Shown one piece after another: positions 3,636 through 43,707 of a DNA stretch of 64,000 nucleotides. The notes beneath the pieces were generated by a model. It was given only the letters and a program-made list of their open reading frames with translations. It was not told the DNA's origin and ran no database searches. Each line of letters begins with the position of its first letter. Position 1 is the stretch's first letter. This DNA is from Cellvibrio sp. KY-GH-1 (GTDB taxonomy: Bacteria; Pseudomonadota; Gammaproteobacteria; Pseudomonadales; Cellvibrionaceae): contig NZ_CP031728.1 of assembly GCF_008806975.1 (NCBI RefSeq), positions 1,922,001 through 1,986,000 on the forward strand. The letters are read 5' to 3'. The position numbers and the translations under genes were made by a program.

Positions 3636-3656
3636 AAAATCCTCAAAAATTGTTAC

Positions 3657-9146: not shown

Positions 9147-10109
9147 ATGATGTTTTCTGATTTAGCACAAGAATATGCGGGCATGAGATTGGTTAACTCA
9201 TACACCCAACAACAAGTCCTAACCATCGCAAAATTATTTGTAAAGCGGTCGGCTGTCTTAAGGACCTCCGAAATTAACCGTTTGGCCTTGATGCGATTTA
9301 AGAATGAATCACTCAAGGAGATTCAACCGGTCACCTATAACGGGTACCTGAAATATCTACGCCTGATTGCCAGCTATGGTGTGGAGGTTGGCTACCTCAC
9401 TTCAAATCCATTCGAAGAACTGAAGCTCATTCCAGTGGGCACGATTCCCCCCAAGACAATTGAATTGGAGGATATCGGCGTATTGGATTATGCACTTATG
9501 CTGGAGGAGGAGCTTTACCAAACAGGATGGTTTTGGGCAGCAGTACTCCGCTGTCTTTACTACACGGGGATGCGACGCCGCCAGCTCGTGAATCTCCGCC
9601 TCGATGATCTCGATTTTAATAGAGAAACTATCCGCCTCAGCTACCAAGGATCGAAGACACGGCGCGAATGGACTGTACCGATGCATAGCGGATTGAAAGA
9701 GACACTGCAGCTCTTGATTCGGAAAACCGAACTTCGACGCGGTAAGAAACTATTGAGACGTGATTACCTGTTCCGAGCGTTTGATTTATTCCCTCGTTTT
9801 AAGAAAGACCCCCAGGGACGTATGCCTCCGGAAGCCATTACCAATTATTTCAAGCGATTGAGTAAAAAGTTCGATATCCGTGTGGGAGCTCACAGGTTTC
9901 GGCACACCTTCGCAACTGCGTTGTGCAATCCGGAAGATGACACTCCGCCAGACGTTTTTGCGGTGCAGCAACTGTTAGGTCATACGGATTTAAAAACGAC
10001 AAGAATATACGTCCAACCTAGGGTTAATCACCTTGGTAGGGTCGTAAATCGTCTGGGAAAGCTTGGAAGAAAAGAAGACAGGTCAGGCAAAAAAATATGG
10101 ATAGCTTGA
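9147..10109 (+). CDS. int: Tyrosine recombinase / site-specific integrase
   Basis: 320 residues, XerC-like size. The SAM-like N-terminal domain (about 1-85) is followed by the catalytic domain: Arg in GMRRRQ (143-145), Lys near 171, H249-x-x-R252 (HRFRH), His279 (LLGHT) and Tyr288 (RIYVQ). All catalytic residues are present, so it should be active. It reads toward the 3' end of the tRNA-Ala gene 149 bases further on, the usual position of an ICE integrase at its attachment site. Two adjacent ATGs are possible starts after GGAG. Confidence 0.92.
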   Translation: MMFSDLAQEYAGMRLVNSYTQQQVLTIAKLFVKRSAVLRTSEINRLALMRFKNESLKEIQPVTYNGYLKYLRLIASYGVEVGYLTSNPFEELKLIPVGTIPPKTIELEDIGVLDYALMLEEELYQTGWFWAAVLRCLYYTGMRRRQLVNLRLDDLDFNRETIRLSYQGSKTRREWTVPMHSGLKETLQLLIRKTELRRGKKLLRRDYLFRAFDLFPRFKKDPQGRMPPEAITNYFKRLSKKFDIRVGAHRFRHTFATALCNPEDDTPPDVFAVQQLLGHTDLKTTRIYVQPRVNHLGRVVNRLGKLGRKEDRSGKKIWIA

Positions 10110-10122
10110 CAAAACAAAGAAA

Positions 10123-10199
10123 AATGCCTGAAACTCAATAGGTTATTCGCGCATTGCTGCGCGAACAATCCTGAGTTTCGTGGCTAAACTGAGGGCATT
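10123..10199. terminator. Long imperfect hairpin between int and tRNA-Ala
   Basis: The inner stem TTCGCGCA/TGCGCGAA closes a 4-base loop (around 10145-10164). It extends through GAAACTC/GAGTTTC and, with a gap, AATGCC/GGCATT. There is no strong T-run on either strand. It probably ends int transcription and shields the convergent tRNA, or forms part of the attachment region. Function is inferred from position. Confidence 0.45.
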
Positions 10200-10258
10200 G
10201 CCTCAATTTTCCTCTTCATTTTGTAACGCAGACTGTACCAAAACAGTCCGGTGGTGTT

Positions 10259-10334
10259 TGGTGGAGCTAAGCGGGATCGAACCGCTGACCTCAACACTGC
10301 CAGTGTTGCGCTCTCCCAGCTGAGCTATAGCCCC
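10259..10334 (-). tRNA. tRNA-Ala (anticodon GGC), complete with encoded CCA
   Basis: On the minus strand the gene starts GGGGCTATAGCTCAG and ends TAGCTCCACCA. The acceptor stem has the G3-U70 wobble that identifies alanine tRNAs. The D arm AGCTCAGCTGGGAGAGC and T arm TCAGCGGTTCGATCCCGC are normal. The anticodon GGC lies at 10301-10299 in a stem AACAC/GTGTT. The whole 76-base gene is intact, so integration by the adjacent integrase has not broken it. Confidence 0.97.
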
Positions 10335-30995: not shown

Positions 30996-32447
30996 ATGTT
31001 TGCGCAAGACACATCTCATATGAGCACAGATACAGATTTGGTTTCGCCAATAACACAGCTGGAATTAGTGCTTCACAATTCCCCTAAGTGCCTCCAGGTC
31101 GGAAAATTCTATAATTGCTACCCAGACTTGTATATTTACTCCGATAATCAACAAACGCGTAAAGACACCATATTGAGGCATAACAATGTCAGCTTTCCGC
31201 AAAACAGTACGTTTGAACAATATGCATTATTCTATCGCACCCATCTTGGTGGGAAATTTAATCGCCGTTATCAAAAACTCAGTTATGCATTATGGGTGGG
31301 TGAGGATAGTAAATTAATTCATCGGTTCTGTCGCAAAGGAAAGCATTTGGATAATGAACTGGTATATCGATTTCACTGTTTCCGCGATTTAATTATGGAA
31401 ACCGTCAAGAATAAAGAATTTCATCTTATCCCCGCTATTTTATTTTTCGGTGCCAATGTCAACACCATTAAAGCTGGTCTTGGCGCATCTCTTTGGAAAT
31501 CACTTTGTAAAAACTCAGCATCCCGAAATAAACTGATATTTAAATGCGCCTCGTTCACAGCAACGCTTTCTCCATTGATAAGACCATGCTTCTCATTTAA
31601 CGAATTAAAATCACCTGCATTGCAGACAGTTCCGATCGTTACCGCAAAACCAATCCTGGAGGCACTTAATGCATTGCCCTCGGGCATTATGCAATCTAAC
31701 GCTTTTCTTCGGGCAATAGAGGGAAATGAATACCATTATGATTATCTGGACAATGGTGATTATGAAGTTATCGACCTAGATCCATCAGAAGCCCAGATTT
31801 TTCAATATTCATTGACTATTGCGGTTGCTGCAAAGCAATGCAAAAAAGTAACCGATCCTCATTTTTTTCGAGACGCTATGCAGACCATTAAGGATTGCCG
31901 TCGCATGGCAAATAGACTGAACGAGCCATTCAATGATCACTGGTCGTTCAATCGCATTGAGCGTGAACATAAAGCGCTAACAAAGTTATTAAACACGACG
32001 ATTCATGAACATTATTATCAGGAATATTCCTTTGAAATCCCTTGGATAAAAGAGCTGCAGTATCGAGGTGTTACGGCAACGCTGCTTTCCAGTCGTGCAG
32101 CCCTGATAATCGAAGGAAGGGAATTAACTCATTGTGTAGCGTCATACCACGAACAAGTCTATTTTGGACGTTCGATTATTTTTTCTCTTCGAACACAAGA
32201 CGGCCAACGAAGCACACTTGAATTGGGTGTTAGGCGTGGCCATGACAGTCTAAAGTTGGTCATACAACAACATAAAACGAATTATGATGACCCCGTGGAA
32301 AATGAACAGTTAAATGCGGCAGCAAAATATGTATTCAATGCCCAAAGACAGTTGCTGATAGATGCGACAGATAACGACGACTCAATGGTGGTGATACACA
32401 ATTTTCAGTTTTTGTCCGATGACAGCCATACCCAGCTATCCAGGTAA
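30996..32447 (+). CDS. PcfJ-like domain protein
   Basis: 483 residues. The C-terminal part (about 360-455) has the PcfJ pattern: ALIIEGRELTHCVASYHEQV, SIIFSLRTQDGQRSTLELGV and KLVIQQHKTNYDD. The N-terminal 340 residues are helical and not assigned. PcfJ domains occur in conjugative plasmids and ICEs; their biochemical role is unknown. A second PcfJ-like protein at 38.7 kb shares the exact HCVASYHE motif. The next start option is ATG 31020. Confidence 0.78.
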   Translation: MFAQDTSHMSTDTDLVSPITQLELVLHNSPKCLQVGKFYNCYPDLYIYSDNQQTRKDTILRHNNVSFPQNSTFEQYALFYRTHLGGKFNRRYQKLSYALWVGEDSKLIHRFCRKGKHLDNELVYRFHCFRDLIMETVKNKEFHLIPAILFFGANVNTIKAGLGASLWKSLCKNSASRNKLIFKCASFTATLSPLIRPCFSFNELKSPALQTVPIVTAKPILEALNALPSGIMQSNAFLRAIEGNEYHYDYLDNGDYEVIDLDPSEAQIFQYSLTIAVAAKQCKKVTDPHFFRDAMQTIKDCRRMANRLNEPFNDHWSFNRIEREHKALTKLLNTTIHEHYYQEYSFEIPWIKELQYRGVTATLLSSRAALIIEGRELTHCVASYHEQVYFGRSIIFSLRTQDGQRSTLELGVRRGHDSLKLVIQQHKTNYDDPVENEQLNAAAKYVFNAQRQLLIDATDNDDSMVVIHNFQFLSDDSHTQLSR

Positions 32448-32483
32448 GCGGATTGCTATTTGCGCGGATACCTGGGTTATTTT
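32440..32483 (+). terminator. Terminator-like hairpin overlapping the PcfJ-like stop
   Basis: CCAGGTA (32440-32446) pairs with TACCTGG (32469-32475), with an inner GCG/CGC pairing and a T-rich tail (GTTATTTTAT). It covers the TAA stop codon. Confidence 0.6.
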
Positions 32484-32497
32484 ATACTCACAAAGCA

Positions 32498-32670
32498 TTT
32501 AGCCTACGGCTAGATCCTTTCCAGAACCACCACAGGCACATCAAGTGGTTGCGTCGAAAGACGGTGCCTAATATTCCTTCACGGCTCATGCCTTTTCATA
32601 CCCACCTTCGGGAGAACATTCCCGCAAGGTAATGCATCTCCTGTTTTACTATCTAACCAGGAGACTAGCT
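32498..32670 (+). promoter_or_regulatory. Structured leader element, copy 1
   Basis: Hairpin 1 is TTTAGCC/GGCTAGA (32498-32514). Hairpin 2 is AACCAC (32525-32530), the 14-base loop CACAGGCACATCAA, GTGGTT (32545-32550), then GCG. A third hairpin, ACCTTCGGGA paired with TCCCGCAAGGT, lies near 32613-32640, just before AGGAG and the start at 32671. The same plan recurs upstream of several genes to 43.2 kb. Confidence 0.7.
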
Positions 32671-33024
32671 ATGTGTTTTTTATCAAAACAAGCCTTTTTG
32701 GCATTAGAACGCGAAGCCTATTCGCTTGAACTCGCTATTGCCAAAGGTGAAGAAACTGACCTCACGGATGCTCGATTAGCAGAGATTGATCAGCTAATGA
32801 CACAGAGCGACTGGATGCTGTCGATTGACTACGGTGTTATCAAGAAATCAGTTAACGGTATTCCATTAAAAGTCTTGAAATCCGCTCGCGGTTTTTACAT
32901 CGGTACGTGCGATGAACAACAAGGCCCTCTGTCTCGTGAATCCAATGAATATTGGACTCGCGAGAATGACGCAAGCCACGCACTTGAATCAGGTCAATGG
33001 ACTCAATTCAATTATGAGATCTAA
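32671..33024 (+). CDS. Hypothetical protein
   Basis: 117 residues from ATG 32671, ten bases after CAGGAG; the upstream ATG at 32632 is inside the leader. N-terminal helices (FLALEREAYSLELAIAKGEE) precede a small beta-rich part (LKVLKSARGFYIGTC). No family recognised. First gene served by the repeated structured leader. Confidence 0.6.
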   Translation: MCFLSKQAFLALEREAYSLELAIAKGEETDLTDARLAEIDQLMTQSDWMLSIDYGVIKKSVNGIPLKVLKSARGFYIGTCDEQQGPLSRESNEYWTRENDASHALESGQWTQFNYEI

Positions 33025-33051
33025 TCATCCATCCTGCTAAGGAGAATACAA

Positions 33052-33273
33052 ATGGCTGAACTGTCTACTTCCGGTTTAGGTTTATTCGCGCCCCAGGATC
33101 TTGATTATTATCGAGAATTGACCCGGGATTTACCTTGCTCAGTAGATCTTACCCGCGATGAATGTGCTGCTGTACTTAAAGCATATGATCGTGGTGTGGA
33201 TGTGTTGAATCAAGAGGAATTACCTCTGCTGAACGCAGTTATTTCGAAACTGAAAGATTGCATTCATCCATGA
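33052..33273 (+). CDS. Small hypothetical protein
   Basis: 73 residues, soluble: LGLFAPQDLDYYRELTRDLP, then LTRDECAAVLKAYDRGVD. A strong AAGGAG box precedes ATG 33052. No family recognised. Co-transcribed with the preceding gene after copy 1 of the leader. Confidence 0.6.
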   Translation: MAELSTSGLGLFAPQDLDYYRELTRDLPCSVDLTRDECAAVLKAYDRGVDVLNQEELPLLNAVISKLKDCIHP

Positions 33274-33283
33274 GGTTAGCCCG

Positions 33284-33394
33284 ATGACGCCCTTCCCAGA
33301 TCATTATGCCGGTTGTATTACGCGAATCGATAAATCGTTTGATGGCTCACTCTCGCTTTACTTTTGGGCAAAACGAGATGGATATTTCAGATGA
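33284..33394 (+). CDS. Very short ORF overlapping the next gene (possible frameshifted start)
   Basis: 36 codons (MTPFPDHYAGCITRIDKSF and on to AKRDGYFR) starting after a GAGG box. The next gene overlaps it in another frame and has no ribosome binding site at its first ATG. Either a short leader peptide couples translation to the next frame, or the two are one gene with a frameshift. Confidence 0.35.
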   Translation: MTPFPDHYAGCITRIDKSFDGSLSLYFWAKRDGYFR

Positions 33395-33710
33395 ATTTTG
33401 TTGGCGCGGAAACGGCAATCAATATCGAACGTCGGATCTGGACTTTTATACCAAAAACACTGAGGGGACATTTTTGCCTCACGGTTTATTGGCATCCGAC
33501 TTTCCACTGTTGCATCGTTGTTTGTACATACTGTCAGAATTTATTGAAGATGAATCAAAAAGTGAATCATTAGGCGATTTGACGGGCTTGTATCGCCTCA
33601 ATGACTCCCCGCAAATTCAATTGATGAAAAAAATTGTGGATGCTCTGCCAAAATCGCGGCCCTTGTGCAAGCAATGCCGCCGAAATTCAGAGTATTGCGA
33701 CTGTGATTAA
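33306..33710 (+). CDS. Hypothetical protein with C-terminal cysteine cluster
   Basis: 134 residues as read from ATG 33306; a more natural start may be ATG 33378, close to the stop of the overlapping short ORF, giving MDISDEFCWRGNG. The end KQCRRNSEYCDCD resembles a half zinc-binding knuckle. No family recognised. A strong terminator follows at 33.76 kb. Confidence 0.55.
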   Translation: MPVVLRESINRLMAHSRFTFGQNEMDISDEFCWRGNGNQYRTSDLDFYTKNTEGTFLPHGLLASDFPLLHRCLYILSEFIEDESKSESLGDLTGLYRLNDSPQIQLMKKIVDALPKSRPLCKQCRRNSEYCDCD

Positions 33711-33755
33711 TACCGTCTAGTCGAGTTAGAGAGTGTTCAAAAATAACGTGTTTCA

Positions 33756-33779
33756 AGCCAGCACCCGCTGGCTTTTTTT
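33756..33779 (+). terminator. Rho-independent terminator
   Basis: Stem AGCCAGC/GCTGGCT with an ACCC loop and seven T. Ends the transcript that begins with leader copy 1. Confidence 0.92.
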
Positions 33780-33888
33780 CGTGCCGACATTTTGTGATCA
33801 CTTTCACATCAGCGCTTTAGGGCTACACTTTAAGAAGCATCAATAAGTGTCGCCAAAGTCGTCCAAAATGGACACGGAGTTGGAATCT

Positions 33889-34248
33889 ATGGGTAAGTCA
33901 ATTTCTGCGCCAAACTATGTCACAGTGGTATACGCGGTTAACGACCCGGTTGCTTTTGAGGCAGAACGCAAGCGAATCATGGGACTGTATTCCAATGGCC
34001 AGGCACCATGGTCAATTACGGCCGTCACCTACGACAATGAAATTCAACGCCTGGAATTGATATCCGTCGCCCTGCAGCAGAATAGAGCTTACCTGGTTCC
34101 CTATATTCTGGACGCCACTATCGGTAACCTGGTGAACCTGTTGGACTTGGAAAAGGATCTTCGCCGCCGCCCACCAACGCTTTCAGACAAAATGACCTTT
34201 AGCTCCCCCCTGGGTGAGGCAATCCCCTCAAAATCTCGCCCCAAATAA
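33889..34248 (+). CDS. Hypothetical protein
   Basis: 119 residues from ATG 33889 (GGAG upstream); starts at 33847 (GTG) or 33868 are possible. Pattern: APNYVTVVYAVNDPVAFEAE, then a helical region NLVNLLDLEKDLRRRP. No family recognised. Lies alone between a terminator and leader copy 2. Confidence 0.5.
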   Translation: MGKSISAPNYVTVVYAVNDPVAFEAERKRIMGLYSNGQAPWSITAVTYDNEIQRLELISVALQQNRAYLVPYILDATIGNLVNLLDLEKDLRRRPPTLSDKMTFSSPLGEAIPSKSRPK

Positions 34249-34302
34249 CCGGGTTAAGTTGTACGCCTAAGCGGTTTGTGCTAATAATACTAATGCCAAG
34301 TT

Positions 34303-34482
34303 TCGATGACTTTCATCGAGCCTTTAGCCGATCACCACAGGTATTTTAGTGATCAAGCTTTTCAAGCTTACCTAACCTTTCAAACACGGCATCTGCCAAC
34401 CTCACCCCGCTGGGACAATCACTCCCATCGGGCGTGGTCTCTCCTTAGCGGGTTTTCTTTTTTCAGCCCCAGGAGAAATACC
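34303..34482 (+). promoter_or_regulatory. Structured leader element, copy 2
   Basis: Hairpin 1 TCGATGA/TCATCGA (34303-34319). Hairpin 2 GATCAC (34330-34335), loop CACAGGTATTTTA, GTGATC (34349-34354). Hairpin 3 CGCTGGGA paired with TCCCATCGG near 34412-34435, followed by TTTTCTTTTTTC and AGGAGAAATACC before the start at 34483. Confidence 0.7.
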
Positions 34483-35298
34483 ATGTCAATCTCTAATGTA
34501 AATTCTGCAGTTTTGAATAATGTTCGCTGGTTTAACGCTCATACTGAAGCATGCGGTTATCTGAATGGCTTGAAGGAGATTACCCCTAAGCCTGGACAGG
34601 ATTTCAAACCGTTTTGGGTGAGTACCTTCTGCATGTATGAAGGTAATCCACAAAAACCACGTAAAACATTTATCAACGTCAACATCGTCAATTTAAAACT
34701 TGTCGATATTCTCAAACCTTACGCTAATCAGCTCAATACTGACCAGTCCAAGGTATGGGTGACTGCACGTATATCGGATGTAACTGTTGAGCCATTTATT
34801 TATGGCAATAACAGCAATCTCGCGGGTCAGTTAGGTGTTAATTGGCAAGCCAATTTAATCTCACTCATAGCGTTAAAAGTGGGTGATATGGCAATTGACT
34901 TGAAACAAGTCACTACGACTGATTTTGGTGTACCTGCGCAACAGCCAGCTGCTACACAAAGCAATTCACCATCACTTCAATCATCCAATAGCCAAAACCT
35001 GTTCGGATTACCATTGTTGGTAACGTTGCAAAAAAATGATCCTAACTTCAGTGCAGCAAAGGATCGTTTGAAACAGCAAGGTTATCGTTGGAGCAATGAT
35101 AAGCTCGCTTGGTGTTTGGCGAATATCAAACTGGAAAAATCAGATCCAGCATTCAATGAGAAATACCATGCATTGAAAAATGCCGGTTATGTCTTCTCCA
35201 AAGCCAACGCAGTATGGAACTTGCCATCTGTCCCAAAGCCGTTAACGGGCAATTACCAGAACACCGGCAATTGCCAGCAAAGCGGGTTTCAGCAGTAA
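34483..35298 (+). CDS. DUF3577-like protein with a C-terminal extension
   Basis: 271 residues from ATG 34483 (AGGAG upstream). The N-terminal 150 residues resemble DUF3577: WFNAHTEACGYLNGLKEITP, the FKPFWVSTF strand and VWVTARISDVTVEPFIY. The C-terminal part holds two copies of a short motif (DRLKQQGYRWSNDKLAWCL and HALKNAGYVFSKANAVWNL), a repeat of about 36 residues. DUF3577 genes are common on ICEs and plasmids; function unknown. Confidence 0.68.
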   Translation: MSISNVNSAVLNNVRWFNAHTEACGYLNGLKEITPKPGQDFKPFWVSTFCMYEGNPQKPRKTFINVNIVNLKLVDILKPYANQLNTDQSKVWVTARISDVTVEPFIYGNNSNLAGQLGVNWQANLISLIALKVGDMAIDLKQVTTTDFGVPAQQPAATQSNSPSLQSSNSQNLFGLPLLVTLQKNDPNFSAAKDRLKQQGYRWSNDKLAWCLANIKLEKSDPAFNEKYHALKNAGYVFSKANAVWNLPSVPKPLTGNYQNTGNCQQSGFQQ

Positions 35299-35452
35299 CG
35301 AAACCAGCCAAGCAGAGCGGCGCTTTATCAGCCATCGGCTGGTTATTCTTGATACTTTTAGGAATGGGTTAACCATTCCTGAAGGTGTCATACCACAGCA
35401 CTTGATCAAGATTCCGAGTGCTATGGTATGATTGCGCCACCAGTTCTCCAGA

Positions 35453-35517
35453 CGCAGCTGTCTCTGCGACCCTTAGCCCTCACGGGTTTGACGGACCACA
35501 CAGGGTTAAATGTCCGT
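35453..35517 (+). promoter_or_regulatory. Structured leader element, copy 3 (no obvious gene behind it)
   Basis: Hairpin 1 CGCAG/CTGCG (35453-35468). Hairpin 2 ACGGAC (35491-35496), loop CACACAGGGTTAAAT, GTCCGT (35512-35517). The spacer CCCTTAG is also shared. No confident gene follows before radC, so its gene may have decayed. Confidence 0.6.
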
Positions 35518-35967
35518 AGGTATTCGATCTACCTCCTTGTATCCTCCCGCTGAGCGAGAAACCAATGTTGTAACACCGTTAGGTGTCCTCCAACGTCAGA
35601 AATTGGTGACTCAAGCCACCTCGGCCATCACATCGCAATGAGATGCGACACGCTCCATCAAAGAAACGGCCTTGGTACTGTGTACCCGGGCCGTTTTCGT
35701 TCCGGATATGCAGTGCTTTGACAAAGCACCATCGTATACAACTGTGGTGCACTCTCAGAGCACTGCTCATTATCCCTTCAAATTCGCGCCCGTCCGCGAG
35801 AAATAGACGTGAATCGTTGTGCAGAATTGACTGTGCGCGAATGTAGTTTGTTGCGATCCACACCCATCAAGACAAACACCCCAAGACACATGGATGTGTC
35901 ACTGTTATGCAGAAGTAATGAATTTATTTTTGGTGCTGAGTCGAAAACAAATTCATTATTTTTGAAA
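35518..35967. other. Gene-poor stretch with possible decayed coding sequence
   Basis: About 450 bases between leader copies 3 and 4. One plus-strand frame stays open except for two stops (for example RQKLVTQATSAITSQ, stop, then ETALVLCTRAVFVPDMQ), which looks like remnants of a gene. Several small hairpins (GCTTTGACAAAGC) are present. No start with a ribosome binding site was found. Confidence 0.35.
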
Positions 35968-36037
35968 TTTAAGATCAGCGAAAGCTGCCCTTAAAAACGA
36001 TCATCCACAGTGCAACGATATTTTATCGATGATGATC
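35968..36037 (+). promoter_or_regulatory. Structured leader element, copy 4, covering the radC start
   Basis: Hairpin 1: outer stem TTTAAG/CTTAAA around CAGC-GAAA-GCTG (35968-35995). Hairpin 2: GATCATC (35999-36005), loop beginning CACAGTGCAAC, GATGATC (36031-36037). The right arm of hairpin 2 includes the radC start codon and no ribosome binding site is seen upstream, so it could mask initiation. Confidence 0.55.
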
Positions 36038-36532
36038 TCACCTTTGGTGGCGCTATCCTCACACATTAGGCACCAGCCTACATTCAATTACACCACTGCT
36101 GAAGAAGTTATCAATGCCGCGAAGCACATCATGGAATCAATGATGGAGCAACGCGACACGTTGTTAACAAGCCCGCAGTTAGTTCGACAATATCTGATGC
36201 TGAGATTAGGGAAAGCAGAGCGCGAAATATTTTGCGTTATCTTTCTCGATAATCAGAATCGCTTAATTGCATCTGAAGATTTATTTATGGGAACGATAGA
36301 TGGCGCTGCCGTTTATCCTCGCGAAGTTGTTAAAGCGGCCCTTAAATATAACGCTGCAGCTGTTTTGCTTGCCCACAACCATCCAAGCGGAATGCTTGAA
36401 GCGAGCACAGCAGATCAACGCATAACTCAACGATTAGTTTCAGCGTTGGAGTTAGTAGATGTTCGAGTATTGGATCACTTTATTGTATCGGGTACCGAAT
36501 CACTCTCATTTGCAGAGCGCGGCTTAATCTAA
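36029..36532 (+). CDS. radC: RadC-family JAB-domain protein
   Basis: 167 residues, lacking the N-terminal helix-hairpin-helix domain of chromosomal RadC. The JAMM metal site is intact: His115 and His117 in HNHPSG, Ser125 and Asp128, and the upstream GTIDGAAVYPREVVKAAL is typical. Short RadC proteins are very common on ICEs and genomic islands; their biochemical role is not settled. Start at 36029 or 36032. Confidence 0.92.
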   Translation: MMISPLVALSSHIRHQPTFNYTTAEEVINAAKHIMESMMEQRDTLLTSPQLVRQYLMLRLGKAEREIFCVIFLDNQNRLIASEDLFMGTIDGAAVYPREVVKAALKYNAAAVLLAHNHPSGMLEASTADQRITQRLVSALELVDVRVLDHFIVSGTESLSFAERGLI

Positions 36533-36553
36533 TCCAGGCGTTTGCCACTCTCA

Positions 36554-36583
36554 CCCCAGGGGAATTTCATCATTCCCCTGGGG
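36554..36583 (+). promoter_or_regulatory. Hairpin 3-type element before the anti-restriction gene
   Basis: Perfect stem CCCCAGGGGA (36554-36563) / TCCCCTGGGG (36574-36583) with a ten-base loop, followed by T-rich sequence and AAGGAG. The same GGGGA-loop-TCCCC plan appears before other genes in this cluster. Confidence 0.65.
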
Positions 36584-36627
36584 CTGATGATTTTCCTCAT
36601 TTATTTTTTTCGTTAAGGAGAATCATC

Positions 36628-37053
36628 ATGAGTACTGTTTTATCACCAGCAACTTCAGCGATCAATGCAATCCCGGTGCCCGGACACTTGCGCATGCAGA
36701 CATTACCAAGACGATTTCCGGGACTGTTCCTAGTATTCGAAAATAATGTCTATGACCACATGAATAAGTTCGCTAAATCCTACAAGAGCGGTTATTGGGA
36801 ATTTATCGAACTTAGCAATGGGGGATTTTATATGTCACTGAAATCCGACAAGAAATTTTTCGTGGAAATTGATAGCAATTACTTCGAAGGAACAATGTCT
36901 GCCGATGCAGCAAGTCTGGTAGCGAACTTATTCGTTTATTCACGACTGGCTGAACAACACAATCTTGATTATTTGATTGAAGGATTTCATGCATTGTACG
37001 AATACGCACGACTACATCCTGAGGGGCAATTAATTTTATCAGCGATTAACTAA
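36628..37053 (+). CDS. ArdB/KlcA-type anti-restriction protein
   Basis: 141 residues. GYWEFIELSNGGFYMSL near 52-68, FEGTMSADAASLVANLFVYS near 88-107 and the C-terminal HPEGQLILSAIN match the ArdB/KlcA family (PF03230), which counters type I restriction during plasmid entry. The HLRMQTLPRRFP start is typical. A strong AAGGAG box precedes the ATG. It supports reading the 32-43 kb cluster as genes for establishment in a new host. Confidence 0.88.
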   Translation: MSTVLSPATSAINAIPVPGHLRMQTLPRRFPGLFLVFENNVYDHMNKFAKSYKSGYWEFIELSNGGFYMSLKSDKKFFVEIDSNYFEGTMSADAASLVANLFVYSRLAEQHNLDYLIEGFHALYEYARLHPEGQLILSAIN

Positions 37054-37078
37054 TTACATTATCCGTACCGGAGAAAAT

Positions 37079-37345
37079 ATGAACAATGAAGTTGCGAACA
37101 ATGAAATGCTGGAAATAGAAGTTCGGGCTTGTTTTATCAACAGTGAAACTGGCGATATCTACGAGACCTTACCCGTTTCTGCAGTGGAAAAGGCGCATCT
37201 ATTTGGTGTGTATACCGGTAAGTCAGATGAGTTGATGTGGTGTGCCGATTTTCAGGAATTGGATCACGCCAAACTATTCGCTGATGCACTAACAAAACAT
37301 CTTGCCGAAAAAGGCATTCAAACAATCAATCACGGCTTTCGCTAA
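37079..37345 (+). CDS. Small hypothetical protein
   Basis: 88 residues, acidic. The C-terminal WCADFQELDHAKLFADALTK stretch resembles the region in the protein at 37779 (DFSKHAMAMEYADELSSQY), so the two may share a small fold. CCGGAG box upstream of the ATG. No family named. Confidence 0.58.
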   Translation: MNNEVANNEMLEIEVRACFINSETGDIYETLPVSAVEKAHLFGVYTGKSDELMWCADFQELDHAKLFADALTKHLAEKGIQTINHGFR

Positions 37346-37365
37346 GCCACACCGAGGAAATTTCT

Positions 37366-37701
37366 ATGTCTCGTCATTATTTCAAAACAACCTATGCCGG
37401 AAAACCTATTGAAGTACTGATGGGTTTTGATCGCCCATTGAATGGCTTTTTCATGGTAATTGATTATCAGGAGGATCCAGAAGATGACGACGATGAGGGT
37501 TTGGTTTATTCAAACTTATGGGAACGGAATCCACATCCTGACTCATTAATACCTTATCTCGAAAAATTGACTGCGCTGAATATTTCAGTCCCAACTGAAA
37601 TGCTTCTAGAAATTGAGAAAGATGGGGAAGTCAAAATGGGCAATAAAGATGTTCGCCATGCAATGGTGGACGGAACTTATACCCGAACATTCATTGGTTA
37701 A
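37366..37701 (+). CDS. Small acidic hypothetical protein
   Basis: 111 residues, with an acidic run (EDPEDDDDEG) near 40-50. A GKPIEVLMGFDRPLNGFFMVI strand region is followed by helices. Such proteins accompany ArdB and DUF932 genes on plasmids; no family recognised with confidence. GAGG box upstream. Confidence 0.58.
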   Translation: MSRHYFKTTYAGKPIEVLMGFDRPLNGFFMVIDYQEDPEDDDDEGLVYSNLWERNPHPDSLIPYLEKLTALNISVPTEMLLEIEKDGEVKMGNKDVRHAMVDGTYTRTFIG

Positions 37702-37715
37702 CACCGTAGCTAACT

Positions 37716-37743
37716 ACCCATTGGGAAGCACTTCCCAATGGGT
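37716..37743 (+). promoter_or_regulatory. Perfect 13-bp hairpin before the gene at 37779
   Basis: ACCCATTGGGAAG (37716-37728) / CTTCCCAATGGGT (37731-37743) with a two-base gap. Same class as the third hairpin of the leader elements; followed by TTTCC and an AGGAG box. Confidence 0.65.
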
Positions 37744-37778
37744 GCTTTCCCACTGGAATTATTATTTCAGGAGAATAT

Positions 37779-38102
37779 ATGTGTGTTGCTTCAGAAGATC
37801 CAATGCTTGTATTAATAAATGATCGTTATGCAGAAAGCATCATTAAAGGTGTTCCCAACTGGTACGACGCCATTGAAGTTCATGGTGTGGTTAACCTCAA
37901 TGAAGAGGATGACCCTGAAGATACCTATTATGTGATTGATGATGAAAATCCTGAACTCTACAGTGTTTATTTGCACTGTACCGAGGGAGGGATTGAGTCT
38001 GTAGGCGATTTTTCAAAACATGCTATGGCCATGGAATATGCGGACGAACTTTCATCGCAGTATCAATGGCCTGTTTCAAATTGTTGCAGTTGTGAAGACT
38101 GA
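37779..38102 (+). CDS. Small acidic hypothetical protein (possibly DUF5983-like)
   Basis: 107 residues. NEEDDPEDTYYVIDDENPELYS, CTEGGIESVGDFSKHAMAMEYA and WPVSNCCSCED give an acidic protein with a C-terminal cysteine cluster. The GGIESVGDF..A..YA pattern resembles plasmid DUF5983 proteins (weak). AGGAG precedes the ATG. Confidence 0.5.
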   Translation: MCVASEDPMLVLINDRYAESIIKGVPNWYDAIEVHGVVNLNEEDDPEDTYYVIDDENPELYSVYLHCTEGGIESVGDFSKHAMAMEYADELSSQYQWPVSNCCSCED

Positions 38103-38176
38103 ATAACTGATTGCCCATTCTCTTGAATGGGCCTTATTTCAGAATCCTTTTCGTGAAGAGGATTGCGAAATAAAGA

Positions 38177-38342
38177 TTTAAGCGTGGCGATATTTACCAC
38201 CCTTAAAAAGTTGCCCACGGGATCTGAAAGGCAACGCGGCTTAGGCCGGATCCTAAACTCAAACATGGGCGAAAGCCTATCCTTAAACCCTGACGGGAAT
38301 TCCCCGTCAGGAGGATGCCCCGTCACTATCAAGGAGCATCTT
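38177..38342 (+). promoter_or_regulatory. Structured leader element, copy 5
   Basis: Hairpin 1: TTTAAG (38177-38182) with GTGG/CCAC inside and CTTAAA (38202-38207). Hairpin 2: GTTGCC (38210-38215), loop CACGGGATCTGAAA, GGCAAC (38230-38235), then GCGGCTTA. Hairpin 3: CCTGACGGG/CCCGTCAGG near 38289-38311, before AAGGAG and the start at 38343. Confidence 0.78.
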
Positions 38343-38705
38343 ATGACGCACCCTTATTTTCATGCTGAATCGTCAGCTCGCAAGTTTGGCGGTATCCCTG
38401 ATGACTATCTGGCCATTCATCGATGGTTTGATGAAACCAAAGAATCATTTTGTGATTATCGGCACCGCGCACTTCGGCATCACGCTGAGGGGATTTTTGA
38501 AGCGGAGCGGTTGTTCGGTACCACTATCATCAATTCGGAAGGCAAACCCGTTCCTGTTCGCTATATTGGCGAACAACACGTAATGGAGGATTGCGGTGGC
38601 CGAGTTCCCAATCTGGCAGATTGGCTGTCTAAAATCGTTCCGGAGGTATGGATGTCTCGCGGTACTTTTTTGGGCAATCTCTCTAAAACGGAGGTGCAAT
38701 CATGA
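38343..38705 (+). CDS. DUF6915-like protein
   Basis: 120 residues from ATG 38343 (AAGGAG upstream); the longer reading lies in the leader. PYFHAESSARKFGGIPDDYL, IHRWFDETKESFCDYRHRAL, RHHAEGIFEAERLFG and PVRYIGEQHVMEDCGGRVPN are the conserved blocks of a plasmid and phage family recalled as DUF6915. Many His residues in RHRALRHHAEG suggest a metal site. Function unknown. The next start overlaps by four bases. Confidence 0.75.
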   Translation: MTHPYFHAESSARKFGGIPDDYLAIHRWFDETKESFCDYRHRALRHHAEGIFEAERLFGTTIINSEGKPVPVRYIGEQHVMEDCGGRVPNLADWLSKIVPEVWMSRGTFLGNLSKTEVQS

Positions 38706-39847
38706 GCGCTGCCACTGTGGATCCAATCGTAGAACGTTTATCCGAGTTACCCGCAAAAGTAGGAAAAAAACTCTTGGGGCAATTCTCCCTGGGGCATGTA
38801 GATGCTCCTACTTTGCATACGGTACTTGATGCCGCTCAGCTCGCCGGCGATATCAGTAAAAGCTTATGGTTTACCGGCAGCTATTTGTTCCTGCGCAGTA
38901 AAGGCGTACCGGTCGGAGATGTTGTGGCCATGGCCAAACAACACCAACGTAAAATTCGCCTTGAATGGTCGGAGCAACGTTGGCGCAATGAGCACAACAA
39001 GCTCTCACGTCTGGCAACGCTGAAAATGTTGGCAGCAAAAAATGTAACCTATGATGTAACATTTTTTGAAAAACATATTGCATCAAGCTATCCCGGGTAT
39101 CTGATTAAATCATCACGCCGCTTGGGAATGGAAGGCTTACGCCAGCAACATTGTGTAGCCAGTTATCACGAGCGGTTAGCGTCCCAGCAAACTGCAATTC
39201 TCTGTCTATTCCTGGATCACACCCGATGGACTGTCGAATTAATCCAAACAAACCATAGCGAAACTCCAGTTCGCATTGGCCAAATAAAAACACGGTTAAA
39301 CGCTGTCGCGTCGAATGAAATTCGCAAACAGGTGTATAACTACCTGGGTTTGGATTTCCCTCGACTTGAAACCAGCTCGCCTGATGGAAGCCGGGCGTTG
39401 CACCAGATTAATCTCACGGCGCTTTTGCCAGTGCTGATAAAACTGGACATTCAAGAAATCTATGTGGGCTTTTCCGGATCCGGTGATGATGGCCATATTG
39501 ATTACGTCGAGATGCAGCCGCCACCTGCGACAATGCCTGTGGTTCACATTCTGGATCAAACCCGGGACTATCAGGACGGGCAATGGATTCATCGTGAATG
39601 CGGTCGCGACTTGCCACTAGATAAAGCCATTGAAGATATCGTATATGGCTATCTCGAAATGACAGGTGTTGACTGGTATAACAATGACGGTGGCCAAGGA
39701 CATTTTTCAATTAATTTCCAAACTGGTAACATCGAGTTTGAAGTTAATCAAAACTATGTTGAATCAGTAACGGAATATGCTAACGAATGGAGCGTTGAAG
39801 AATTTATGGAGCAACTTGTTGTACCTGCATTAACTGAATCGACATAA
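38702..39847 (+). CDS. Second PcfJ-like domain protein
   Basis: 381 residues. Residues about 135-225 carry the PcfJ pattern (GMEGLRQQHCVASYHERL, ILCLFLDHTRWTVELIQ, RIGQIKTRLNAVAS). The C-terminal 150 residues are acidic, with YVGFSGSGDDGHIDYVEMQP. That domain resembles the DUF6878-type acidic proteins of plasmids (weak). It is coupled to the DUF6915-like gene and ends at a strong terminator. Confidence 0.72.
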   Translation: MSAATVDPIVERLSELPAKVGKKLLGQFSLGHVDAPTLHTVLDAAQLAGDISKSLWFTGSYLFLRSKGVPVGDVVAMAKQHQRKIRLEWSEQRWRNEHNKLSRLATLKMLAAKNVTYDVTFFEKHIASSYPGYLIKSSRRLGMEGLRQQHCVASYHERLASQQTAILCLFLDHTRWTVELIQTNHSETPVRIGQIKTRLNAVASNEIRKQVYNYLGLDFPRLETSSPDGSRALHQINLTALLPVLIKLDIQEIYVGFSGSGDDGHIDYVEMQPPPATMPVVHILDQTRDYQDGQWIHRECGRDLPLDKAIEDIVYGYLEMTGVDWYNNDGGQGHFSINFQTGNIEFEVNQNYVESVTEYANEWSVEEFMEQLVVPALTEST

Positions 39848-39860
39848 CTCACGTCACACT

Positions 39861-39886
39861 CCCAACCGGTTTTCCGGTTGGGTTTT
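39861..39886 (+). terminator. Rho-independent terminator
   Basis: Stem CCCAACCGG/CCGGTTGGG, loop TTTT, T-rich tail. Ends the DUF6915-PcfJ transcript. Confidence 0.92.
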
Positions 39887-39930
39887 ATTCGTGAATATTT
39901 TTAATCGCGTTTCTGAAAATATTCACGAAT
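39887..39930. repeat. 15-bp perfect inverted repeat
   Basis: ATTCGTGAATATTTT (39887-39901) and AAAATATTCACGAAT (39916-39930) separated by 14 bases. AT-rich, between a terminator and leader copy 6. Could be a regulator-binding site or a second, weaker terminator. Confidence 0.7.
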
Positions 39931-39934
39931 AAAA

Positions 39935-40090
39935 TTTAAGCCAGCAAAATGCTGTTCTTAAAAAGCTATCCATGGGTTCTGCAAGATAGCGCGGTTTTTA
40001 TACCTGAACCTACCCCCATCGGGATTACCTACCCGATGGGCAAGGTATTTCTGTTGGGGTTTTATCATCTAACTCCAAGAGGAAAATATC
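39935..40090 (+). promoter_or_regulatory. Structured leader element, copy 6
   Basis: Hairpin 1: TTTAAG (39935-39940), CAGCA-AAA-TGCTG, CTTAAA (39957-39962). Hairpin 2: GCTATC (39965-39970), loop CATGGGTTCTGCAA, GATAGC (39985-39990), then GCGG. Hairpin 3: CCCATCGGG/CCCGATGGG near 40015-40040. AGAGGA precedes the start at 40091. Confidence 0.78.
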
Positions 40091-40918
40091 ATGCAACTTT
40101 CATCTCGATTCAAATCAGGCGCACCCGCTTTACGATCTGATTATCCACTGTCAGATGATCAAATCCGTAGAGTAGCCCCATCAATCTTTGCAGAAATGCC
40201 ACATACAAGTCGCTCGGAACGATACAGTTACATTCCAACCTGCGCTGTGTTGAATGAATTGCGATCCGAAGGCTTTCAACCCTTTATGGTGTGTCAGACA
40301 AGAGTCAGAAATGATGATCGTCGTGAATTCACCAAGCATATGATTCGTTTGCGTCACGCCAGTCAAATTAACGGGGCAGAAGCAAACGAAATAATATTGC
40401 TGAATTCTCATGACGGCACCAGCAGCTATCAAATGTTAGCGGGTATGTTTCGCTTTGTATGTCAGAATGGCTTGGTCTACGGCGATACTCTGATGGACGT
40501 TCGCATACCACACAAAGGTGACGTCACCGGGCATGTAATCGAAGGTGCCTATGAAGTCCTGGGTGGGTTCGAACGAGTCGCAGAATCACAGGAAGCCATG
40601 CAAGCAATTAGCCTGGATTCAGGTGAAGCTGAAGTGTTTGCATCTGCGGCACTCACATTAAAATACGATGATCCGGAAAGGCCTGCGCCGATTACAGAAA
40701 GTCAAATTTTAATGCCGCGTCGCAGAGACGATCGGAATTCAGATTTATGGAGCGTGTTTAATCGCACACAAGAAAATCTTATCAAAGGAGGCCTGCCTGG
40801 TCGAACCGCTACTGGCAACCGCCAACGAACTCGAGCAGTCGCAGGTATCGATCAAAATATTAAATTAAATCGAGCATTGTGGTTATTGGCCGATGGTCTA
40901 CGCAAACTCAAATCGTAA
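40091..40918 (+). CDS. DUF932 family (phage/plasmid-like) protein
   Basis: 275 residues. YSYIPTCAVLNELRSEGFQP, HMIRLRHASQINGAEANEII, NSHDGTSSYQMLAGMFRFVCQNG (blocks around 105-130) and the C-terminal QENLIKGGLPGR, NRALWLLADGL match DUF932, a family widespread on plasmids, ICEs and phages, often beside anti-restriction genes. Function is not known. Followed by two terminators. Confidence 0.9.
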   Translation: MQLSSRFKSGAPALRSDYPLSDDQIRRVAPSIFAEMPHTSRSERYSYIPTCAVLNELRSEGFQPFMVCQTRVRNDDRREFTKHMIRLRHASQINGAEANEIILLNSHDGTSSYQMLAGMFRFVCQNGLVYGDTLMDVRIPHKGDVTGHVIEGAYEVLGGFERVAESQEAMQAISLDSGEAEVFASAALTLKYDDPERPAPITESQILMPRRRDDRNSDLWSVFNRTQENLIKGGLPGRTATGNRQRTRAVAGIDQNIKLNRALWLLADGLRKLKS

Positions 40919-40936
40919 TTATTATTTTTATTAAAC

Positions 40937-40960
40937 GCCCTCTATCATGAGGGCTTTTTT
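40937..40960 (+). terminator. Rho-independent terminator after the DUF932 gene
   Basis: Stem GCCCTC/GAGGGC, six-base loop and six T. Confidence 0.9.
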
Positions 40961-40975
40961 CAGGCGAAAAAAAAT

Positions 40976-41005
40976 AAAACCCCGGAGCAATAGCTCAGGG
41001 GTTTT
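40976..41005. terminator. Bidirectional terminator between convergent genes
   Basis: AAAACCCC/GGGGTTTT with an inner GAGC/GCTC stem. It serves the minus-strand gene at 41.0-41.7 kb and backs up the DUF932 terminator. Confidence 0.85.
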
Positions 41006-41022
41006 AAGGGTCTAACAGGTAC

Positions 41023-41748
41023 TCAGGCTGCAGCGCTATTATCGGTCTGGGGTAATTCGGTTTGAGAAAAATACGCCTCGACTTTAGCAGCCACAGCGCT
41101 CATCAACTCAACATGAAACTCCAATTCAATTTTAGCGCGACGTGCTGCAAGCGTTTCCTTATCGGTAATGCCTGCGGCCTGTAGCTTTTCTTTGTCGGCA
41201 TCAATCCTGGGAGCAAGATGCTCTTTAGGACTAACAGACTTGATCTCACTACCACCTTGACGCAAGCTGGCACCATGGTCGGCGTAAGCGCGATTAGCAC
41301 CTTCGCGTTGGCCATAGGTAGCAAACATACGCAGGTCGGTGTGAACACCAAACTCAGCGTTGATCAGTTTACGCACCAACATTTGAGCAGCTTCTTGTGC
41401 GAGATTGACGGACACGTAATAGCGTTCATCTCCCTCTCTCAAGCCGATATGAAGGTATGGCGTTGGTCTACCTTCCACATCACGCTCAATAATACGAGCA
41501 CTGTTGAGGATGCCTGACACACTGACCGGTGTAACGCCTTTCTGACGCAGGAAGTCCAGGGCCTTTGCAGACGCTGAATCACCTTTGCTACCTTTAAAAC
41601 CTTTCTTTGCCTCTTCCACACCAACGAGCGATTTAGCCTCACTAATTAAGGCCTCAGACTCATCATTGGAAAGATACATCATGCCCAAAAAGGCACTGTA
41701 GCGCAGGTTAAAAACAGATTGATTGGATTGGTTAGATTGAATAGCCAT
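41023..41748 (-). CDS. Hypothetical protein, conserved-looking plasmid gene
   Basis: 241 residues from ATG 41748, which follows GGAG after leader copy 7. A Ser/Asn/Gln-rich start leads to RYSAFLGMMYLSNDE, then YLHIGLREGDERYYVSVNLAQEAAQ in a beta-rich central part, a helical charged region and an Ala-rich tail. No membrane segment. No family recognised. The only member of the leader-bearing genes read from the minus strand. Confidence 0.65.
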   Translation of the reverse strand: MAIQSNQSNQSVFNLRYSAFLGMMYLSNDESEALISEAKSLVGVEEAKKGFKGSKGDSASAKALDFLRQKGVTPVSVSGILNSARIIERDVEGRPTPYLHIGLREGDERYYVSVNLAQEAAQMLVRKLINAEFGVHTDLRMFATYGQREGANRAYADHGASLRQGGSEIKSVSPKEHLAPRIDADKEKLQAAGITDKETLAARRAKIELEFHVELMSAVAAKVEAYFSQTELPQTDNSAAA

Positions 41749-41940
41749 GATGTTTTCTCCGGATTTAGAAAATAAAAAAGCCCGGAGGAAAACACAGCCC
41801 GATGGGAGTAGTTTTCCCACCGGGCGGTCATGAAGCTTCACGCTTCGGATAGAGGTTAAAACGCAGCTGTATAACTTGATCCCGTTGCAGCGTTCGTGGG
41901 GATCTCTTTAAGAGTCAACGTATGGACGTTGATGCCTTAA
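41749..41940 (-). promoter_or_regulatory. Structured leader element, copy 7 (minus strand)
   Basis: Read on the minus strand. Hairpin 1: TTAAG (41940-41936) with TCAACGT/ACGTTGA inside and CTTAA (41912-41908). Hairpin 2: GATCCC (41904-41899), loop CACGAACGCTGCAAC, GGGATC (41883-41878). Hairpin 3: CCGGTGGGA with TCCCATCGG near 41826-41802. The element has inverted together with its gene. Confidence 0.72.
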
Positions 41941-42023
41941 CGGGTTACATATTAGCCACTATTTCAGAGCGCTTCAAGCCTAGTTACTATAAAAGGCAAT
42001 TGCTGTTCTCTTAAAGAGCAATG

Positions 42024-42761
42024 TTAATCGCCCATAGTTTCTGTAAATATCCTAAACCTTTGAATATCAGATAGCGTTAGTTTATAGCTGTCAGCAAAGC
42101 TCACGCGTTTACTTAATGCCAAAAACTCCAAATGCACATCCTTATCTGGATTATCCTTTCGATCCAATAAAGATTTAAAAATAAAGGAATTCATAAAACC
42201 TGAACTCAAAGGGACATTACAAATACACAGGGATACATTTACTCCAGCACTATGAGTTGCAATTTTATAGCTTTGACCTATTGCAATTCTCTTATTACTG
42301 GCCAAAAGTAAGTAATTACACGCAGAATCACATTTTGTGTTGATAAGCTGTCGAGGCTTTTCATTTTTGTCTTTGATAAAGTATGTTTCTGCCATGCAAG
42401 TAGAAAGTCCATTTTTCAAAATCCACTGCCCGAGTGAGCTTGCATCATGAACATTTCCTCCCTGAGTATCAAAACAGACAGTAGTTATTCCTTTGTCGCG
42501 CCATGTTTCCAGCAATTTATTTACATCTGATACTGTGCTATCTGAAATTTCCCCCACTATAAGCACGACGTTATCCAGACAATATGTCTCATCACGATTA
42601 CAGGCTTTTGCAATGGTTGCTTTTGGCAAGTGAATATCTTCATGCAATGTTTTTACAATAAGCTTTTCTTTTTTGTAGTCTTGATAAACAGTACAAATCA
42701 AAGCCGCCGCCAGCCCTGCAATTCCGCAAAATAATATTACTTTTTTTAAATATGCCTTCAC
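42024..42761 (-). CDS. Membrane-anchored ClpP-like (COG3904-type) protein
   Basis: 245 residues from GTG 42761. An N-terminal membrane helix (about 7-25) anchors an outside domain. CFDTQGGNVHDASSLGQWI (96-114), CDSACNYLLLAS with the predicted nucleophile Ser146, and YKIATHSAG with His170 are the ClpP/crotonase-fold pattern of periplasmic COG3904-type proteins, possibly serine proteases. Several cysteines could form disulfides. Not in an operon. Confidence 0.68.
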   Translation of the reverse strand: MKAYLKKVILFCGIAGLAAALICTVYQDYKKEKLIVKTLHEDIHLPKATIAKACNRDETYCLDNVVLIVGEISDSTVSDVNKLLETWRDKGITTVCFDTQGGNVHDASSLGQWILKNGLSTCMAETYFIKDKNEKPRQLINTKCDSACNYLLLASNKRIAIGQSYKIATHSAGVNVSLCICNVPLSSGFMNSFIFKSLLDRKDNPDKDVHLEFLALSKRVSFADSYKLTLSDIQRFRIFTETMGD

Positions 42762-43020
42762 AAATCAACCCTTTTATTCGATACCAGACTATTGATAGAA
42801 GCCCTAAGCTAGGCTCAATGTTTTTGACGCCACAAAGCACATGAGTCATTGACCATGCTGATGGGCATTGTGGGTATATTTTGGCAATAATTGCCATGAA
42901 AAATAGCCAAAAAAACCACTTTTCCATGTGGATACAGGCGTAAGACGCCTATATATGACGCAGAAATGAGCAGTGATTGCACCTGTGCACAACAGAGGCT
43001 ATAGTAAAGATGCTAATGCC
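42762..43020. other. Intergenic region with divergent promoter-like sequence
   Basis: No gene seen. AT-rich, with TTGACGCC and TTGACCAT boxes, a TTTTGGCAATAATTGCCATGAA region holding GGCAATAATTGCC (near-palindrome) and AGGCGT/ACGCCT. Probably the control region of the divergent ClpP-like gene and the leader-bearing gene at 43183. Confidence 0.4.
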
Positions 43021-43182
43021 CAGTGACATTCTTCGCTGACCCTTAATTTGCTGCACACAGGGCCTCATGCAGCTAAGCGAAAGCTTGCCCTCTACCTGCA
43101 TCACCGCCACCCACCCGGGGAGTTCAATCCTCCCCTCCAGGGTCGGCCTGACTCCTACTGTTTTTTACCTTAGGAGTCCATC
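43021..43182 (+). promoter_or_regulatory. Structured leader element, copy 8
   Basis: Hairpin 1: CAGTGA/TCGCTG (43021-43038). Spacer ACCCTTAAT. Hairpin 2: GCTGCA (43050-43055), loop CACAGGGCCTCA, TGCAGC (43068-43073). Hairpin 3: GGGGAG/CTCCCC near 43117-43135. TTAGGAG precedes the start at 43183. Confidence 0.72.
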
Positions 43183-43392
43183 ATGGAACACACGTTCAAC
43201 GTAAGTAAATTCCGCACTATCAAAGCAACGTTTGGCGAAACCATCAAAATACATGTTACGGACTCTCGAGTTCCTGATAATGATTTTGAGGGTGAGTTTC
43301 CTTTGCTGACTTACAATGAGATTGTGGAGTTTTTTAAAGAGCATGAGCACATCTATGCCATGAATATGGCAAAAGAGCGCTTCAAGCGATAA
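43183..43392 (+). CDS. Small hypothetical protein, paralog of the next gene
   Basis: 69 residues. Beta-rich start and a C-terminal helix LTYNEIVEFFKEHEHIYAMN that matches AQYNKLVDWLKDNDHGFAMN in the protein at 43492, so the two are diverged duplicates. Basic tail (KERFKR). No family recognised. ATG eight bases after TAGGAG. Confidence 0.6.
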   Translation: MEHTFNVSKFRTIKATFGETIKIHVTDSRVPDNDFEGEFPLLTYNEIVEFFKEHEHIYAMNMAKERFKR

Positions 43393-43399
43393 GCACGAT

Positions 43400-43473
43400 C
43401 CCTAACTGGCTTTAGCCGGTTAGGGGTTCTCCCCAAGATGCCTGGTAACAGGATGCTTCGGGAGAACCCCTAA
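43400..43473 (+). promoter_or_regulatory. Two mutually exclusive hairpins between paralogous small genes
   Basis: CCCTAAC (43400-43406) can pair with GTTAGGG (43419-43425) as a terminator-like stem. The same GTTAGGG is also the start of a perfect 14-bp arm, TTAGGGGTTCTCCC (43420-43433), pairing with GGGAGAACCCCTAA (43460-43473). Only one can form, as in attenuators. Confidence 0.6.
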
Positions 43474-43491
43474 CCACCCCTGGAGACAATT

Positions 43492-43707
43492 ATGGCCAAT
43501 CAAATGTGCTTCTCAGCTAATGCTCGTCATGAAGTAAATCTTACCTTGAACAGTGACACTGGATTATGTGATGTGAAGGTGAGCGATAAGCTCTCGGACA
43601 AAACATTTTCAAAATCCATGATGCTTGCGCAATACAACAAACTGGTTGATTGGCTGAAAGATAACGATCACGGATTTGCAATGAATTCAATTCATTCACT
43701 TTTTTGA
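43492..43707 (+). CDS. Small hypothetical protein, paralog of the previous gene
   Basis: 71 residues; the C-terminal half aligns with the protein at 43183 (YN-x-x-V-x-x-x-K-x-x-x-H/D-x-x-A-M-N). TGGAG box upstream of the ATG. The start of the protein holds LTLNSDTGLCDVKV. No family recognised. Confidence 0.58.
   Translation: MANQMCFSANARHEVNLTLNSDTGLCDVKVSDKLSDKTFSKSMMLAQYNKLVDWLKDNDHGFAMNSIHSLF

Follow-up and report, generated by a model that had tools for sequence, protein, structure and literature searches.

Predicted pseudoknotted RNA leaders before accessory genes of an integrative conjugative element in Cellvibrio sp. KY-GH-1, and a structured non-coding RNA beside them

The 64,000-nucleotide (nt) stretch of the Cellvibrio sp. 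KY-GH-1 genome considered here (contig NZ_CP031728.1, positions 1,922,001 to 1,986,000; hereafter the window, in whose own numbering all coordinates are given) is part of an integrative conjugative element (ICE) of the PFGI-1 class. Models of this class with matches in the window are TraD, the MobH relaxase, ICE_PFGI_1_parB, STY4528 and PFL_4669, and the right end of the window carries TraU, TraG_N and TraC_F_IV. One region of the window encodes PcfJ, DUF3577, RadC, an antirestriction protein, DUF6915, DUF6878/PcfJ and DUF932 proteins, and it is interspersed with eight copies of a structured element, which are described here as predicted leader RNAs together with a large structured non-coding RNA (ncRNA) that lies among them.

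The first-pass annotation, made from the letters alone, had recognised these copies as a two-hairpin leader upstream of accessory genes. All eight of its second hairpins are present where it had placed them, with perfect stems of 6-7 base pairs (bp) and loops that begin with CAC or CAT. A scan for such a stem with a CAYR loop and an upstream CTT gave eight sites in the window, namely seven of the eight copies and one other site at 44452, whereas 20 dinucleotide shuffles averaged 1.85 and never exceeded 5; the copy at 35453 was picked up only without the CTT condition, under which the window holds 19 sites in total against a shuffle mean of 10.4. Both hairpins stand, but the core, which occupies the first ~85 nt, comprises more than these: helices P1 and P2 are joined by a small hairpin P3, frequently capped by a GNRA tetraloop, and the P2 loop forms a pseudoknot with the bases that follow P3. 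Behind the core, the gene leaders continue with a C/G-rich hairpin 4 and subsequently with a hairpin that pairs with the Shine-Dalgarno (SD) region. The GGGGA/TCCCC-type third hairpin, which had been placed next to the ribosome binding site (RBS), does exist, but the SD-pairing hairpin comes after it.

The individual copies, scored in bits with the covariance model R2 introduced below, conform to this layout to different degrees. On the plus strand, the core at 32490..32572 (43.5 bits; P1, P2, P3 and pseudoknot AGGCAC/GTGCCT) lies behind a possible promoter, TTGCGC-17-TATACT, which ends 2 nt before it, and is followed at 32573..32670 by hairpin 4 and an SD-masking hairpin, after which an open reading frame (ORF) of 117 amino acids (aa) starts at 32671. 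The core at 34295..34376 (plus; 37.5 bits; AGGTA/TACCT) has an upstream site that fits the looser of the two promoter rules given below and precedes a DUF3577/STY4534-like gene with a Pfam DUF3577 match, which starts at 34483; the intervening 34377..34482 contains hairpin 4, a possible terminator strand with a U-tract and the SD-masking hairpin. The DUF6915 gene, starting at 38343, is preceded by a core at 38177..38257 (plus; 43.3 bits; GGGATC/GATCCT) with hairpin 4 and SD-masking pairing at 38258..38342, and the DUF932 gene, starting at 40091, by a core at 39935..40014 (plus; 43.6 bits; GGGTTC/GAACCT) with hairpin 4 and SD-masking hairpin at 40015..40090. The inverted core at 41856..41941 (minus; 48.1 bits; GAACGC/GCGTTT) belongs to the minus-strand gene 41748-41023 and conforms to the stricter promoter rule, with TTGAAG-17-TAATAT recognised by eye; hairpin 4, a possible terminator strand CCGGGC with a U-tract and the SD-masking hairpin lie at 41749..41855 on the same strand. 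At 43012..43095 (plus; 42.8 bits; AGGGC/GCCCT), a core with the promoter TTGCAC-17-TATAGT precedes a 69-aa gene starting at 43183, with hairpin 4 and the SD-masking hairpin GACTCCTA/TAGGAGTC at 43096..43182. The copy before RadC (35968..36050, plus) was not part of the model and scores 13.6 bits with filters off; it has an extra hairpin within the P2 loop, and the stretch 35968-36110 is devoid of the downstream hairpin 4 and SD hairpin that its close homologue in locus L114 possesses. The listed start of the RadC ORF, 36029, falls at the edge of the P2 3' arm of this leader. Seven copies precede genes, in agreement with the earlier description, but the eighth, copy 35453, has no ORF that was found behind it and instead begins a conserved non-coding region, 35446..35840 on the plus strand, which constitutes the core of the large ncRNA.

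Evidence for the fold comes from comparison with copies in related genomes. An alignment of six copies (A4) yielded the covariance model R1, and one of 19 copies (A6) yielded R2, which encompasses P1, P2 and P3 and does not include the pseudoknot; of 26 copies, 21 were parsed (35968, 35453, their two L114 homologues and one duplicate were not), and A6 comprises 19 of these 21, since segments of the other two were over-long. In A6, 93.7% of the cells are paired, 25 of 28 pairs show change on both sides, and this agreement is lost when the strands are slid against each other. The proportion of paired cells reaches 97.4% in P1b, 100% in P2, 96.0% in P3 and 98.1% in the pseudoknot; the outer stem P1a, for which TTTAAG/CTTAAA had been noted, is present but is the weakest helix at 78.1%. 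A third alignment, A7, consists of 34 matches aligned by R2, a model blind to the pseudoknot, and here at least five contiguous pseudoknot pairs form in 32 of the 34 copies (the two exceptions have 3 and 4), in forms as different as AGGCAC/GTGCCT, TAAACGC/GCGTTTA and AAGCGC/GCGCTT. Swapped combinations of strands reach that length in 304 of 1120 cases, none of 2000 permutations was as good, and all 15 copies outside the R2 training set pair at five or more contiguous bases. With regard to strand, G-U cells outnumber A-C cells in P1b (6 to 3), P2 (7 to 0) and P3 (4 to 1) of A7. Unpaired positions are likewise kept among the 34 copies: the first base of the P2 loop is always C (34/34) and the next A in 88%, and near the loop end T stands in 83% of copies, followed by G in 77%, A in 77% and A in 88%.

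The distance from core to start codon is mostly 65-115 nt, and within it the SD region appears to be masked. In 36 leaders, a leader's own pairing averages -15.5 kcal/mol compared with -12.3 kcal/mol for swapped partners, and none of 5000 permutations was as good; these 36 are drawn from 39 copies, 35453 (no ORF), 35968 (no SD hairpin) and L118:6769 (weak match) being left out, and three leader ends were set by hand. At the other end, 10 of 40 copies have a site of the form TTGNNN-17-TANNNT that ends 5-9 nt upstream of the core; 300 shuffles of the upstream sequence averaged 0.12 such copies and never gave more than 2, and the other 5-nt distance bins out to 44 nt hold 0 or 1 such copies each. 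A looser promoter rule is followed by 16 of the 40 (shuffles: mean 1.36, maximum 5). The cis-acting RNA leaders that had been proposed as one of two interpretations gain support on both counts, from helix covariation in relatives with G-U kept where A-C is rare (P2, P3 and P1b), and from promoters that directly precede one copy in four, well beyond chance expectation, with an SD-masking hairpin after. Some other copies carry a long inverted repeat in place of the promoter. Such repeats, of differing sequence, lie at 35910-35964 and, directly before the DUF932 leader, at 39883..39934 (plus), as well as before 38177 and 35453, in each case ending right before the core; by eye, they often end at an AT-rich, -10-like stretch.

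Among the loci compared, six other genomes carry a conserved counterpart of the ncRNA region 35446-35840, with 67-88% identity in matched pieces. For the seven sequences with their flanks, RNAalifold proposes 93 consensus pairs, of which 38 covary, with 84 G-U against 12 A-C cells, a ratio to be read with the fact that RNAalifold itself favours G-U. Against column shuffles, the core of the seven sequences gives z scores of -17.0 on the plus strand and -8.3 on the opposite one; with ten sequences, of which G567 and G591 align poorly by eye, the value is -12.4 on both strands. ARAGORN found neither tRNA nor transfer-messenger RNA in 35300-36100, and the ncRNA had no match among plasmid records. 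Its 3' motif, allowing at most two mismatches, occurs in all 10 leader-bearing genomes and in G658 and G672, and was absent from 273 of 274 genomes of the class, the single match being the host's own; the exact pattern was not present in the viral contigs searched, and at three mismatches matches become frequent, likewise in a reversed control. In nine genomes, the 5' part of the ncRNA shows leader-like P1, P2 and P3 helices with a candidate pseudoknot, whose own pairing averages 6.1 against 5.3 for swapped strands (20 of 5000 permutations as good); G567, in which no counterpart was recognised, was not part of this test. Judged by its predicted fold, the 5' part of the ncRNA bears a modest resemblance to the leaders.

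Leaders and the ncRNA 3' motif co-occur in 10 genomes. R1 found its six source copies and a weak match at 55569 (11.9 bits) in the window, the source six only in the whole host genome (E<=1), and, when run on 144 genomes of the host family, copies in 5 further members of the genus. R2 found copies in nine of these 144, seven of the genus including the host's own and two of other genera; the tenth leader-bearing genome, G610, was reached via the ncRNA motif, close to which lie two leader matches. When 14 genomes, G610 not among them, were tested for TraD, it was present in eight of nine with the element (not in G591) and in none of five without it. The relatives' copies precede similar genes, by eye DUF3577-like, RadC-like and those of a ~240-aa and a ~70-aa family, and also DUF3275; a weak leader match (18.7 bits) lies before a C5-cytosine DNA methylase gene near position 1590 of locus L152. 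Both covariation and copies outside this element, on which the first-pass annotation had made its proposal depend, were looked for and found. Beyond the family, R1 recovered only the host's own copies among 194 genomes of the order and 398 of the phylum, and R2 likewise among 244 of the order; since filtering in these large scans was strict, scores were computed for only some of the candidates, and the R2 family scan missed G610, such absence is weak evidence. Regarding other mobile elements, R1 had no match in the DUF932 loci of ICEclc-like elements (best 80 of 555 relatives). In many of the ICEclc-like loci viewed (L009 9740-10000 among them), the DUF932 gene lies behind a conserved stretch rich in GC and in hairpins, and a tentative consensus fold of this ICEclc-type leader has 14 pairs. 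On the side of plasmids, 31 records match 32450-40100, and the 25 among them that were listed all fall within the coding parts of RadC or DUF6915 in that stretch; the DUF3577 protein had no match among plasmids, and the folded RadC region of the Vibrio MOBH plasmid L091 showed no such leader by eye. Three loop-pattern matches in viral contigs were ruled out as they did not fit the model, and protein scans of viral contigs gave no relatives.

The same annotation had suggested Rfam motifs named after DUF3577 and DUF3085 as possible relatives, which finds no support. No such family appeared at E<=10 over 31500-43700, where all 16 Rfam 15 matches fell below the gathering cut-off and the best (E 0.012) was a microRNA family, and a literature search for the two as RNA motifs listed no paper. 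In the whole window only a tRNA reached the cut-off, in six ICEclc-like loci only tRNAs did, and loci L119 and L152 gave three matches at E<=1, all below it. Literature searches on DUF3577 and on ICE leader RNAs, pseudoknots, riboswitches and large structured RNAs retrieved no description among the top-ranked results, a sample that mostly excludes subscription papers.

Taken together, comparison of the copies shows conserved helices and a pseudoknot, pairing over the SD region and, for some copies, a promoter at a constant short distance. We slightly favour the reading that the leaders control translation from hidden ribosome sites via a partner shared with the ncRNA. The copies would be 5' untranslated leaders of ICE accessory operons, with the RNA starting at or just before P1 and its first ~85 nt folding into P1, P2, P3 and the pseudoknot of the P2 loop with the strand after P3. 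The C/G-rich hairpin and the SD-pairing hairpin would then keep translation off or slow unless the leader is acted upon; this control of translation, suggested by the SD masking, would be exerted by the 5' pseudoknot domain governing access to the masked site. Its partner, an RNA-binding protein or the 30S/S1 machinery, would also meet the 5' part of the ~400-nt ncRNA, which could in this way titrate the leaders or feed back on them. A more specific version, in which the 5' pseudoknot domain of the ncRNA has been copied within the ICE family to serve as leader for as many as seven operons, a single partner binds ncRNA and leaders alike, and the amount of ncRNA determines how strongly transfer-related accessory genes are expressed, is more speculative and should be held tentatively. 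In ribosomal-protein leader mimicry, an mRNA leader resembles part of a structural RNA, as the leaders here appear to do, with the difference that the present likeness is one of fold only. With OLE-type large ncRNAs, the ncRNA shares a length of hundreds of nucleotides, high structure and conservation; unlike these, it resides on an ICE beside leaders of similar 5' layout and has no Rfam match.

Several observations weigh against this translational reading. The A6 figures derive from an alignment made by hand to fit the structure, which makes A7 the cleaner test, and many copies are kin by descent, so that counts are not independent. A first, unrestricted pseudoknot test was weaker (26 copies; own mean 13.7, swapped 11.7), with five copies ranking no better than half of the swaps; A-C cells exceed G-U cells in the outer stem P1a (12 to 9); and 24 of the 40 copies have no upstream site that fits even the looser promoter rule. 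The likeness between ncRNA and leaders consists of layout and a modest pseudoknot test in which swapping still leaves 5 bases paired in 52 of 72 cases, the longest 5' pairing in G580 and G591 differs from the proposed pseudoknot, and model R2 does not detect copy 35453, hence common descent of ncRNA and leaders is not established.

Among other explanations, a role as standby-site leaders, in which the 5' pseudoknot would bind 30S/S1 and ribosomes would wait upstream to reach the masked RBS with no dedicated regulator, is rather unlikely, yet has a precedent. The tisB mRNA of Escherichia coli, a precedent on which the favoured reading also draws, combines a 5' pseudoknot and standby site with an RBS masked ~100 nt downstream, as given in the abstract of that work (PMC7708055), and by comparison the leaders here share this predicted layout of 5'-near pseudoknot and masked RBS, at mostly 65-115 nt. 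On the other hand, tisB is a single toxin gene whose abstract names neither a leader family nor a paired ncRNA of like fold, and standby by itself leaves the kept P2-loop bases and the ncRNA unexplained. Improbable in turn is a metabolite riboswitch with the pseudoknot core as aptamer controlling SD masking: the compact pseudoknotted core, the conserved unpaired bases and the putative expression platform speak for it, but no Rfam match reached threshold, only one bacterial family among the samples searched has copies, no ligand common to RadC, DUF932, DUF3577 and DUF6915 genes is evident, and the core looks like the beginning of a large ncRNA.

A similarly low probability attaches to transcription attenuation, in which strand A of hairpin 4 has two alternative partners, strand B and a strand C further downstream, whose adjoining U-tract would end the transcript. 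Such a terminator-like strand is available in part of the leaders, clear by eye in cases such as GCCCGG/CCGGGC-TTTTTT at 41940, and in the 28 leaders for which a U-tract was called, A:C complementarity is higher than after swapping partners (none of 5000 permutations equalled it), a rough test as the automatic choice took the wrong run in several; against attenuation, only part of the leaders have the strand, A:B is usually longer than A:C, and the U-tract also lies in the loop of the SD hairpin. Finally, the single-stranded DNA promoters like Frpo, raised earlier as the other interpretation and serving early expression in recipients, have become highly improbable. According to PMC11541004, Frpo imitates a double-stranded promoter whose -35 and -10 lie within a stem. 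The Frpo and ssi promoters of plasmid leading regions resemble the present copies in that they are structured and repeated and neighbour early or anti-defence-type genes on a conjugative element; an antirestriction gene is among the genes here, long inverted repeats precede some copies, and 3 of the 40 copies, the inverted one among them, have a promoter-like site (>=8/12 matches) that starts upstream of the core and has both hexamers paired in the DNA fold. In contrast, 37 of 40 have by this rule no -35/-10 pair within a stem, the cores are not enriched in promoter-like sites (21/40; shuffles mean 21.9), the copies lie in either orientation, G-U but not A-C is kept in P2, and the structure here would be RNA lying after the likely start site.

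With respect to the setting, the host genome comprises 5.76 Mb in one contig and has another TraD, 68 kb beyond the first and with 92% identity to it (1-10334 versus G000:C1:1994584), and a tRNA sits between a tyrosine recombinase and ParB; together these suggest two ICEs side by side. A 27-nt inverted repeat with a 4-nt spacer lies between two small genes at 43418-43475.

ICEs need their accessory genes expressed at the right time. The leaders and the ncRNA provide two RNA families, not matched in Rfam by these searches, whose structures are open to mutation and compensation, and they may represent an unrecognised RNA control system of a mobile element. If the favoured reading is true, the mobile element itself would carry a post-transcriptional regulon, in which one folded leader is placed on many operons and linked to a large ncRNA.

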